This document shows, in pieces, positions 2,328 to 26,377 of a stretch of 64,000 nt of DNA. How positions within the stretch are numbered: position 1 is the stretch's first letter; every line of letters begins with the position of its first letter. The stretch is from Ruminiclostridium cellulolyticum H10. Lineage in GTDB: Bacteria; Bacillota; Clostridia; Acetivibrionales; DSM-1351. The notes below the pieces were generated by a model. It made no database searches, was not told the origin of the DNA, and saw only the letters and a list, made by a program, of their open reading frames with translations. The position numbers and the translations under genes are program-made. The stretch covers positions 2,100,501-2,164,500 of the forward strand of contig NC_011898.1 of the NCBI RefSeq assembly GCF_000022065.1, given 5' to 3'.

Positions 2328-3923
2328 TTATATTTTTAATCCTGTTTTAAGTAACACCATTGCATACAATGATGTAATGAATGTCAATAACAATGCGAAC
2401 ACAAACGCTATTCTTATTACTTTGTTTTCTTCACCTAATTTGTCTATTGATGCTGCTGCATTTTGAAGTTTTGCCGGAGAAATTACACTTGCGAGGCCTC
2501 CTCCAAATGCTAGTGCAGCAGTAACGATTATAAGTCCGTCAAGCCCTAAATTAAGCTTATTGGCGGTTTCCATTGTGTAGTTTGCAAACATAGCAATGGT
2601 TGAGGCTTCACTTCCCGTAACAAAACCCCCGAAGAGACCAACGAATCCAGTTATAAATCCATAAGCTCCGCTGAATGCGTCTGCCGACGTATTGGCCAAA
2701 ACTTTTATCATGCTTTCAGTTTTATATGCCATAGTATCAAGACTCCAACCGGAATAATTCATTACATCACCGATTGCAAAAAATATTGCAGCTGAAAACA
2801 CAGGCCTTGGAGCTCTCTTAATCCATATTTTTAAGGAGTCCTTCAACTCTGTTTTTTTAGGCTGTATTACAAGCATTGAGACAACTACGGCAACGGCAAT
2901 CCACGTATAAGCATTCCATAAAGCTCTTGTAGCTATAGGCTTCCCATCCACGGCTATGCCCCTTATGGGCAGTGTCAGATTGTAAAGAAAATCATAAACT
3001 GGCTTAGGAAGATTCAATACAAGTATGAAACCTATGAGTATAATCCAAGGACTCATTGCCTTCCAAAGAGGATATTTCTTCTCATATTCCCTTTCTTCAT
3101 CTGTCAGGATGCTCTTATCAATTACTTTTTTACCTGTAAACTTCAGATAAAGTGCCATTGCCAATATTACTGCAAGACCGCTCAAAACTCCTGTCAATGT
3201 TACTAGATTATCCACCTTGTTTGTGAAATATGAAACAACTGCTATAACACCACCGGTAACTATACATGGAAGAAAACCCTTTTTTATTCCATCCCATTTA
3301 TCAACTATGTAAAGCATACAAAAACCAATCAAGGTAGAAACCAAGGGTAAAAACATGAAAAATACTCTTCCTGCCTGTGAAGGTGTTATCTCATGTCCTT
3401 GTCCCAAAAAGTTGTTTGCAAAATCCAGAAATGCCACAAGAGGAGCTCCAAGAAGCGAGTATGTGCATAGTGAATCATATCCTATGGATGGTAGTGCAAT
3501 TGAAACATATGTAGAATAGCCCATTGCAAGCAGTATGGGAGGAAGTATTGATACCGGCGTAGCACCGACAGCTACCATTAAAGTACCAAATCCTATATTA
3601 ATCATCATAATCTGAACTGCTTTATTATGGCTTGCTATTGTTTTTATGAAAATTATTATCCTTTTTAAGGCACCAGTTTTTTCCATATAAGCCATCATGA
3701 ATAGTGATGTCAGCACTATCATTGAAACCGGAAAAGAACGAATAACTCCTGAAACAGTTGATCGGAAAATAACCGGCAAAGAAGTTTTAAAGAATACTAA
3801 CGCTACAACAGACACACAAAGCCAGCCAATGATACCACTAATGTCAGCTGACTTCTTAAAAATTACAAGCATACATACTATTACCAAAATTGGTAATAGC
3901 GTCAAAATAAGTGACCCTACCAT
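2328..3923 (-). CDS. LctP-type organic acid (lactate permease family) transporter
   Basis: Integral membrane permease of 531 residues with about 12-14 hydrophobic segments, resembling the L-lactate permease family. Diagnostic is the C-terminal GGFVTGSEASTIAMFANYT region, the counterpart of the TGS motif in LctP/LldP/GlcA. The start is placed at the ATG at 3923 because GGAGG is about 8 bases upstream; the longer GTG start at 3938 overlaps that site. It is the first gene of a two-gene unit with the CoA ligase. Lactate is the family substrate; the CoA ligase partner suggests another carboxylate is possible. Confidence 0.75.
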   Translation of the reverse strand: MVGSLILTLLPILVIVCMLVIFKKSADISGIIGWLCVSVVALVFFKTSLPVIFRSTVSGVIRSFPVSMIVLTSLFMMAYMEKTGALKRIIIFIKTIASHNKAVQIMMINIGFGTLMVAVGATPVSILPPILLAMGYSTYVSIALPSIGYDSLCTYSLLGAPLVAFLDFANNFLGQGHEITPSQAGRVFFMFLPLVSTLIGFCMLYIVDKWDGIKKGFLPCIVTGGVIAVVSYFTNKVDNLVTLTGVLSGLAVILAMALYLKFTGKKVIDKSILTDEEREYEKKYPLWKAMSPWIILIGFILVLNLPKPVYDFLYNLTLPIRGIAVDGKPIATRALWNAYTWIAVAVVVSMLVIQPKKTELKDSLKIWIKRAPRPVFSAAIFFAIGDVMNYSGWSLDTMAYKTESMIKVLANTSADAFSGAYGFITGFVGLFGGFVTGSEASTIAMFANYTMETANKLNLGLDGLIIVTAALAFGGGLASVISPAKLQNAAASIDKLGEENKVIRIAFVFALLLTFITSLYAMVLLKTGLKI

Positions 3924-24748: not shown

Positions 24749-25936
24749 TCAATTCTTGTTTGAGCTATTATATTGAGAAATAACATAGTTATATTCCTGT
24801 AAAATCTGTTCCGTTATTATATTCCAATTATACAGCCTATGTACATTTTCCAATGCATTAATACTAATCTGTTTTGCTAAAGTTTCATTACTAAGCAGTT
24901 CAAGGATGCAATCCGCCAGGGAATTGGAATTTCCGCTGTAAAATTTCATTCCATTGACTCTGTGATCCACTATTTCCCTTAACCCTCCGGTATCCGATAC
25001 CACTACAGGAATGCCTGCAACCATCCCTTCAAGTGCTACAATTCCAAATGGTTCATAGGTACTTGGAAAAACTGCAATATCAGAACATCTGTATAGCTTC
25101 AGTAAGACCTCCTCACCTACAAAACCTGTAAAATAAACTCTGTTCTGAATATTAAGATTACGGCTTTGTTCAATTAAATTATTTAAACACGGTCCTTTGC
25201 CCGCAATTACAAACTTGACATCATTATAGCTTCTAATTATTTCAGGTATTGCATTTAACAACACCTGCACTCCCTTTTCACTTACAAGTCTTCCCACAAA
25301 GAATACTATTTTTTCACTTGGAGCAGCATAATTATTTCTGAATTCTTTATCAAATTCTATTTTATTGAATTTATTCAGTTCTATTCCATTACTAATTACA
25401 CTTATTTTATCCCCAGTGACTTTAAATATAGATTTAATTTCTTCTTTCATATATTTACTATTTACTATTAATTTTTCCGATTCATCCGAAAGCATTGCTT
25501 CAACACTGTTGATTGCTTTCTGCATATCAGAGTAAATTCCGTTGTTTCTACCGAATTCTGTTGCATGGATGGTTGAAATCAACGGAATTGAAAAAGAGTT
25601 TTTTAAAACTTTTGCGGCATATGCAACAAGCCAGTCATGTGCATGTATAATATCAAATTTGTTTTCCTGTAAAAGCCTGACTGCTGATTCAAGCATCGCA
25701 AAGTTCAACTGTAAAACCCATTCTATAAAGTTTGTTGTAGAAACATCACTTAAACGTACTCTATGTACTGTTACATTTTTTTCATTTTCAAAATCCGGGG
25801 TTCCTTCTTCCCAGCATGTCAAAACATGAACCTGATTACCATAACGGCCTAAGTTATTTGCCAAATCGTACACAACTCTTGAAATACCTCCTATTATCCT
25901 AGGAGGGTATTCCCATGAAAGCATTAATATTTTCAT
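24749..25936 (-). CDS. GT4-family glycosyltransferase (glycogen-synthase-like)
   Basis: 395 residues with the GT-B fold: N-terminal MKILMLSWEYPPRIIGGISR, HAHDWL, then the C-terminal nucleotide-sugar domain with FVGRLVSEKGVQVLL and the E-x7-E motif in EPFGIVALEGM. The start resembles archaeal-type glycogen synthases and related GT4 enzymes; donor and acceptor cannot be deduced. AGGAA precedes ATG 25936. No exopolysaccharide genes surround it. Confidence 0.85.
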   Translation of the reverse strand: MKILMLSWEYPPRIIGGISRVVYDLANNLGRYGNQVHVLTCWEEGTPDFENEKNVTVHRVRLSDVSTTNFIEWVLQLNFAMLESAVRLLQENKFDIIHAHDWLVAYAAKVLKNSFSIPLISTIHATEFGRNNGIYSDMQKAINSVEAMLSDESEKLIVNSKYMKEEIKSIFKVTGDKISVISNGIELNKFNKIEFDKEFRNNYAAPSEKIVFFVGRLVSEKGVQVLLNAIPEIIRSYNDVKFVIAGKGPCLNNLIEQSRNLNIQNRVYFTGFVGEEVLLKLYRCSDIAVFPSTYEPFGIVALEGMVAGIPVVVSDTGGLREIVDHRVNGMKFYSGNSNSLADCILELLSNETLAKQISINALENVHRLYNWNIITEQILQEYNYVISQYNSSNKN

Positions 25937-26073: not shown

Positions 26074-26102
26074 TTGACACTATATTAGAATAAAACTATA
26101 AT
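26074..26102 (+). promoter_or_regulatory. Perfect consensus promoter of a candidate small RNA
   Basis: TTGACA (26074-26079), 17-base spacer, TATAAT (26097-26102). This is the only fully consensus promoter I found in the window, and no protein gene follows it. Confidence 0.8.
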
Positions 26103-26108
26103 ATTATT

Positions 26109-26198
26109 ACTAATACACAGTCTCTTTTGTTTTCCTCGGACAGATAACAAAGAAGATTACTTAAAAAACAGAAGTTTAATAGCTTCTGTTTTTTCTTT
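26109..26198 (+). ncRNA. Candidate small RNA of about 90 nt
   Basis: Transcript expected from the consensus promoter to the terminator at 26163-26198. It has an internal stem (about 26123-26131 with 26146-26153, one bulge) whose loop carries TTTCCTC, complementary to GAGGAAA-type ribosome binding sites, followed by the terminator hairpin. There is no ATG in the body. Start and function are inferred; no family recognised. Confidence 0.55.
26163..26198. terminator. Terminator of the candidate small RNA
   Basis: Stem AAAAAACAGAAG (26163-26174) with CTTCTGTTTTTT (26183-26194), 8-base loop, T-rich tail. The A tract opposite also makes it usable on the minus strand. Confidence 0.85.
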
Positions 26199-26243
26199 AT
26201 ATAATAATATAAAGATTTGTTCCAAAATTCCTTACAACACGAA

Positions 26244-26285
26244 AAAAGTATTTCGGTTTGATTAAGACCAAACTGAAATACTTTT
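26244..26285 (-). terminator. Terminator of tRNA-Gln
   Basis: Long stem pairing 26244-26260 with 26269-26285 (AAAAGTATTTC / GAAATACTTTT core), followed by TTTTTTC on the minus strand, immediately after the tRNA 3' end. Confidence 0.85.
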
Positions 26286-26358
26286 GGCTGCGGGTCAAGG
26301 ATTCGAACCCTGACAAACTGATCCAGAATCAGTCGTGCTACCTTTACACAAACCCGCA
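26285..26358 (-). tRNA. tRNA-Gln (CTG)
   Basis: 74-nt cloverleaf: acceptor TGCGGGT/ACCCGCA, anticodon stem ACTGA/TCAGT enclosing TTCTGGA (anticodon CTG), T arm GGGTTCGAATCC, encoded CCA. Confidence 0.94.
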
Positions 26359-26377
26359 TCGCTTATCGACAAGAGGT

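Follow-up and report, generated by a model that had tools for sequence, protein, structure and literature searches.

A small RNA of Ruminiclostridium cellulolyticum and a second RNA that appear to form a dedicated, co-varying pair

The segment at positions 26074–26198 (plus strand) of the window, that is, the whole stretch of 64,000 nucleotides analysed here, is strongly supported by its conservation as a real small-RNA gene with its own promoter and terminator. From sequence comparison, its product (RNA A) and a second RNA encoded elsewhere in the same genome (RNA B) appear to be a dedicated, co-varying RNA–RNA pair, the two partners changing in step between species, and this putative pair is the new content of the analysis. 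Both genes, their conservation, their complementarity, and their co-variation are supported by sequence, and regulation of B by A is the most likely role of the pair; this direction of action, the opening of a hairpin of B, and the consequence for B are what we infer. The pair is traceable with matched changes over ten families, in an order that includes cellulose degraders, and provides natural compensatory variants ready for testing the RNA–RNA contact. The predicted contact is placed on an intrinsic terminator, where natural control by a trans-acting RNA would be new to us. The analysis has also brought to light RNA B, with its tandem repeats, as an unexplained RNA found across the order.

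Structure, setting, and conservation of RNA A

The sigma-A type promoter of A (TTGACA-N17-TATAAT; 26074–26102, plus strand) has a perfect consensus and counterparts in relatives, and is the sole exact instance of TTGACA-N16..18-TATAAT on both strands of the window, for which 0.17 instances are expected from the shuffled window (at least one in 16 of 100 shuffles). The predicted transcript of ~90 nt (26109–26198, plus strand), the ends of which are deduced from the –10 box and the terminator, has a minimum free energy of –23.6 kcal/mol when folded from 26109 (z = –4.57; none of 200 shuffles was as good). It contains a hairpin (26119–26158, plus strand, from folding and alignment) with the predicted loop CUCGGACA at 26135–26142 and a lineage-specific 3′ arm, and an intrinsic terminator (26163–26194, plus strand) composed of a 14-bp stem followed by CTTTAT, which is predicted by folding and has a counterpart downstream of A in relatives. 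A preliminary description of this DNA had reported such a promoter, a hairpin, and a terminator, and all three are present at that place; of the stem with a TTTCCTC loop that it described, the stem stands, and TTTCCTC is divided half and half between stem and loop in the predicted fold. Its statement that the segment carries no ORF agrees with our finding that no plus-strand ORF of at least 50 aa overlaps the predicted transcript. An 87-aa ORF on the minus strand (26096–26359), which runs through tRNA-Gln and is antisense to A, was considered spurious, and a small ORF within A or B was also rejected, the longest frames differing between families and none being common to the order (38 B and 23 A sequences).

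The gap is flanked by a glycosyltransferase gene (minus strand, 24749–25936), the start of which faces the A segment, and by tRNA-Gln (minus strand, 26285–26358), which comes toward it. Just behind tRNA-Gln lies a strong, near-symmetric hairpin (26244–26283), which by eye recurs in the genus with different bases in its stem; it is probably the tRNA-Gln terminator and perhaps terminates in both directions.

A was found in 34 of 58 searched genomes of the order. In the genus, it is present in 10 of the 11 genomes, and these copies (located by DNA search) always lie between the glycosyltransferase gene and tRNA-Gln; the sole exception is G002, in which the syntenic gap is empty. Searching the 58 genomes with an exact pattern gave 13 genomes with one match each and none with the reversed control, and the total of 34 was reached by adding a sequence model (R1, 23 copies) and a looser pattern combined with a promoter filter (13 genomes), through which six of 69 loci passed, two being accepted as A and four being deemed chance matches by eye. 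A promoter scoring at least 9/12 is located 17–41 nt before the motif in 33 of the 34 copies (26 perfect), two of the 34 (G015 and G049) having been selected with the promoter filter, and a terminator follows in 31 of the 34; control offsets of the A loci yielded an equally good promoter in 1 of 129 cases and terminators in 7 of 127. The copy in G024 is weak, with a promoter of 8/12 and no terminator called. Hence the small RNA of ~90 nt proposed in the preliminary description is strongly supported, as a prediction, by conservation. As to the conservation that it expected in relatives, promoter and transcript recur at the same place in the genus, whereas the 3′ arm of the hairpin is variable. 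In the alignment of 23 copies, the 5′ arm and CCCGGA are invariant, and the 3′ arm is altered or lost across much of the order with CUCUUUU and CCCGGA retained, the conserved part reading CUCUUUU..UU..CCCGGA. The conserved pairing segment of the window, CTCTTTTGTTTTCCTCGGAC (26122–26141, plus strand; consensus CUCUUUUGUUU-N0..2-CCCGGA), is based on the alignments and on the duplex and shuffle tests described below. The setting is partly kept beyond the genus: A adjoins rnjA, as in the genus, in five genomes of f5 (G014, G028, G041, G044, and G046), four of which also have tRNA-Gln beside A, and neither neighbour was found beside A in the five genomes of f4. The genomes of f13 and G012, in which A was not detected, may hold missed divergent copies, the locus being shown empty only in G002.

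In a sample of 291 genomes of the class, R1 at E ≤ 0.001 matched seven of the 13 order genomes and one off-order genome (G305), whose match sits in an open coding frame and was rejected as A. A search of genome contigs returned 46 matching stretches, of which eight have a promoter by eye (five from Ruminiclostridium or kin, including one MAG titled Eubacterium sp., one from Pseudobacteroides, and two from Hungateiclostridiaceae MAGs); the remaining 38 resemble chance matches and were dismissed as A outside the order. In a draft genome of the Oscillospiraceae (L088), CTCTTTTGTTTTTCCCGGA occurs twice at an interval of 173 bp (3364–3382 and 3537–3555), with no A-like promoter by eye; this is probably a repeat unrelated to A. 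At the gathering cut-off of Rfam 15, neither A (the full window, a scan of the local region, and 13 additional A loci) nor B (part of L113 and five further B loci) gave a match, only tRNAs passing, and a viral-contig search with the glycosyltransferase gave no lead.

The preliminary description had also suggested that the loop blocks ribosome binding sites of the GAGGAAA type, such as that of proC, by means of CCTC, a reading that we find barely credible. CCTC does lie partly in the predicted loop; against this, it is private to the species of the window among the 23 aligned copies, the relatives having CCCC, ACCC, TCCC, or GCCC at the counterpart position and the window being the sole copy with CCUCGGA. 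The site in the start region of the suggested target (GAGGAAA at 865, minus strand), in a gene that we take to be proC from its first residues, has a predicted duplex energy with A of –10.7 kcal/mol; the window contains 15 GAGGAAA sites, including the antisense of A itself, and all others pair more strongly. Among these 15 sites and the 23 aligned copies, the test gave no sign of a C-rich loop that is both conserved and able to pair with ribosome binding sites, the conserved form being CCCGGA. With a site in RNA B, A is predicted to form a duplex of –34.2 kcal/mol, and it is to this second RNA, rather than a ribosome binding site, that the conserved pairing segment of A appears to point.

RNA B and its matched changes with RNA A

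The conserved segment of A has one near-perfect complement elsewhere in its own genome (4,068,724 bases, one contig), with 21 of 22 bases matching (BLAST E-value, 0.0065), at ~3885068–3885090 on the minus strand and 1.76 Mb from A. It belongs to RNA B (about 3885047–3885255 of the window's own genome, minus strand, L113), and by duplex computation the segment 26122–26141 is complementary to the 3′ domain of B. B sits in a gap that follows ytxC (TIGR02834) and precedes a gene whose product has an Asp23 domain at the C-terminus and matches a P-loop weakly; this gap was read as a second promoter–terminator unit in all 11 genus genomes. The promoter-to-terminator span of B is ~150–360 nt, and an RNA of ~180 nt is predicted in R. 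cellulolyticum. Across the order, B was read in 41 genomes, with ytxC at the same locus in all 41, the promoter (TTGACA-N16/17-TACAAT or TAAAAT, at least 10/12) in 38, and a terminator recognised by pattern in 38 and by eye in the remaining three. No B was visible next to the P-loop gene of G017, G025, G030, and G031, the flanks being short in G017 and G031; the place before the P-loop gene in which B is expected in G031 (L169, 1–202) resembles by eye the terminal part of an inserted element, perhaps a group II intron. A model of the B 3′ region (R2) matched all 13 order genomes of the class sample at E ≤ 3e-6, and 81 off-order genomes gave weaker raw matches (best, 4.6e-6, in G072 and G100). 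R2 is based on sequence only, because RNAalifold found no pair in the B 3′ alignment.

Within B, repeats of C.AA.GA (as in ACAAAAGAUAAA), a motif chosen post hoc, were counted in 25 of the 41 genomes and amount to 70 versus 4.75 expected. Each of the 25 genomes has at least two repeats, and 36 of 45 spacings are 22–25 nt, giving one repeat about every 23 nt. The repeats are kept where A was not found and where UCCGGG of B has decayed. They were also considered as extra sites for A and rejected, as they are unchanged by eye in G026 and G015 though UCUUUUGU of A is gone there. A 5′ hairpin of B, judged by eye on 18 sequences, is weakly supported, with 89.9% of the cells paired and two pairs changed on both sides.

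The protein encoded next to B (L032, 559–1383, minus strand) is uncharacterised, with a weak P-loop match at its N-terminus and the Asp23 domain at its C-terminus; its gene was found in 24 of the 28 order genomes queried and in all 11 of the genus. At 33 of the 36 loci where both were read, this P-loop/Asp23 gene is at most 300 nt downstream of B on the same strand. The gap is 671–923 nt in three genomes, and in G037 the gene is 3.4 kb off, behind opposite-strand genes, with A and B both kept. A TG-extended –10 box, again a motif chosen post hoc, is present in 24 of the 33 short gaps that separate B from the gene, versus 3.0 expected from shuffles, suggesting that the gene has its own promoter. 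On these grounds, and in view of G037, B as an attenuator leader of the P-loop gene was discarded as the sole reading.

A B-like general pattern was found in 25 of the 58 order genomes, and in 17 of the 25 at exactly two places, namely in B and on the antisense side of A. Predicted duplexes between cognate A and B, computed in all combinations for 29 of the 34 A genomes (B being unread in G023, G031, G032, G041, and G056), sum to –848.6 kcal/mol versus –759.0 kcal/mol (sd, 11.1) for shuffled partners, with none of 50,000 shuffles reaching the cognate sum; when one genome per family (ten families) was drawn at random 200 times, the nominal p value reached 0.0015 at most, the p values of the duplex test ignoring residual kinship. 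The sequences themselves exhibit changes that match on both sides. Where the window genome has CCUCGGAC in A and GUCCGAGG in B, four close relatives have CCCCGGAC and GUCCGGGG, respectively. UUUAAUU in A of G026 is matched by AAUUAAA in B, A of G016 has one U fewer and its B one A fewer, and in G015 the same middle is missing on both sides, the two RNAs also having CCCGGAUG and CAUCCGGG. The usual G.G mismatch is replaced by U-A in G021, and the flanks of the A:B duplex match as GAUC, UU/AA, UAA/UUA, or CAA/UUG. The fit varies among genomes: the cognate partner is better than every partner from another family on both sides in only seven of 27 genomes (27-pair run), G033 and G024 pair below the average of the combinations, G014 and G037 are about average, and G003 has a bulge. 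The B site of G049 is weak (–11.4), yet its A retains ACCCGGAUAA, an indication of additional partners of A. A of this genome (L295) has a promoter, a terminator, and a changed middle, CUCUUUCUCAAGACCCGGA, and its predicted duplex uses CUCAA:UUGGG instead.

The predicted contact on the terminator of B and its possible roles

In 28 of the 29 pairs, the site on B extends from UCCGGG (UCCGAG in B of the window genome) to within the 5′ arm of the terminator hairpin, with UUGGG in G049, and the predicted duplex enters this arm in all 29, forming 5–8 pairs in its last 8 nt. CUCUUUU of A is identical to part of the 3′ arm of the same hairpin, which in the window genome leaves a 4-nt bulge that can be filled by bases of A, suggesting that A is able to compete for the hairpin 5′ arm. 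When A and B are folded jointly, binding is favoured for each of the 29 pairs (mean, –10.7 kcal/mol), with at least 15 inter-strand pairs in 17 and fewer in 12; in the fold of the window pair, a 13-bp toehold duplex is formed and the terminator of B stays closed. Given this closed terminator and the 12 short joint folds, we only infer that the terminator is opened.

We consider it fairly probable that B is the main partner of A, and that A pairs at the 3′ end of B, blocks or opens this end, and antagonises or destabilises B. CCCGGA of A would first pair with UCCGGG just upstream of the terminator hairpin, after which CUCUUUU-GUUU, a copy of the terminator 3′ arm together with the bulge-filling bases, would pair with the hairpin 5′ arm. 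The 3′ end of B would thereby be blocked or opened, and B may be antagonised or destabilised as the outcome. As to direction, B is retained in G002, which has an empty A gap (we had expected a matching A in this genome, and it is absent), and in the f13 genomes (G022, G042, G045, G047, and G051) and G012, where A was not detected and UCCGGG has decayed. This retention suggests that B is not there just to soak up A and has work of its own, which may lie in the tandem repeats C.AA.GA; the repeats being unchanged by eye where A changes favours A as the regulator of B.

A possible, though rather unlikely, alternative is that A is an ordinary mRNA-regulating small RNA with ACCCGGAUAA as its seed, and that B is a sponge which titrates or processes A, in the manner of RosA/RoxS. 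A G-rich stretch of B indeed meets a C-rich stretch of A, both RNAs look stand-alone, CCCGGA of A is predicted to be more than half unpaired in 20 of the 23 copies computed, and CCCGGAUAA is kept in G033 and G049 though the B site is shorter or weak there. However, a sponge would fit poorly with the persistence of B without A in G002 and with the repeats kept where UCCGGG has decayed, and many mRNA targets would hinder the A segment from changing along with B as it does in G026, G015, and the window. The same complementarity could also arise if the shared stretch were a protein-binding DNA site occurring once per locus in opposite orientation, the RNAs being incidental, since two RNAs that are complementary and a DNA site shared in inverted orientation would look alike in sequence; we hold this to be highly improbable, because the stretch has a fixed place inside two promoter–terminator units, its flank and bulge bases co-vary by genome, and its lengths shrink together.

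The position of the duplex, which covers the terminator 5′ arm in all 29 pairs together with an upstream toehold, raises the question of activation. STARs exert their effect at a terminator that precedes the gene they control (PMC5435934, excerpt), and the P-loop/Asp23 gene is close behind B on the same strand at most loci, as described above. If A were a natural terminator-opening activator of this sort, it would pair with nascent B, prevent the hairpin from forming, and permit read-through into the P-loop/Asp23 gene. This is quite unlikely in view of the gene's own probable promoter, the wide gaps in three genomes, the distant gene of G037 with A and B kept, and the closed terminator in the joint fold of the window pair. 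The wider proposal that A is a natural STAR counterpart, in which a decoy of the terminator 3′ arm and toehold invasion by CCCGGA switch B, perhaps with the P-loop/Asp23 gene, between terminated and extended forms under order-wide co-evolution, we regard as unlikely.

Comparison with known RNA regulators

A literature search returned no account of A, B, or their pair. Small RNAs of the genus Clostridium were reportedly surveyed in 2011, and the A gap may be listed there as a prediction, so that no priority is claimed for A as a predicted small RNA.

The small RNAs of Firmicutes with C-rich motifs, such as RsaE/RoxS and LhrC, are short and terminator-ended and expose a C-rich motif. A, regarded as a regulator of B, shares all of these traits; unlike them, it has the motif ACCCGGA and not UCCC directed against the Shine–Dalgarno sequence, and its only co-varying partner found is an RNA. 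Complementarity to the 5′ half of a terminator and to an upstream stretch, which we take to be the design of STARs, is shared by A, and was found for the terminator 5′ arm and upstream toehold in all 29 pairs, the toehold being weak in G049. Both cases concern a trans-acting RNA on an intrinsic terminator, but STARs are engineered, whereas activation by A is only a proposal and B looks autonomous in several genomes (for STARs, PMC5435934, excerpt). SgrS/setA resembles B in that a small RNA with a terminator lies just upstream of a gene, and differs in that the terminator efficiency varies with stress, with no second RNA described in the excerpt of PMC6582626. That excerpt, from a review on termination and small RNAs, treats the regulation of small-RNA terminators and the influence of small RNAs on Rho-dependent termination, and describes no natural trans-acting RNA that opens an intrinsic terminator; attenuators are treated in PMC4878617 (excerpt).

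The nearest known kind is the RosA-type sponge. RosA of Bacillus subtilis, a sponge of RoxS and FsrA, is called the first confirmed sponge in a Gram-positive bacterium in a paper that also treats RoxS/RsaE and calls small RNA–small RNA pairings rare (PMC8216469, excerpt). In both systems, two stand-alone Gram-positive small RNAs pair through a C-rich and a G-rich stretch, and for A and B the promoters, the terminators, and the cognate duplexes indicate in silico a stand-alone RNA that pairs with the seed of the other. The sequences and taxa are different, and G-rich regions as well as two or more partners are described for RosA (PMC8216469, excerpt). In contrast to RosA, for A and B, whose roles are proposed, the site lies on the terminator stem of the partner, B persists without A, and the co-variation extends across the order.
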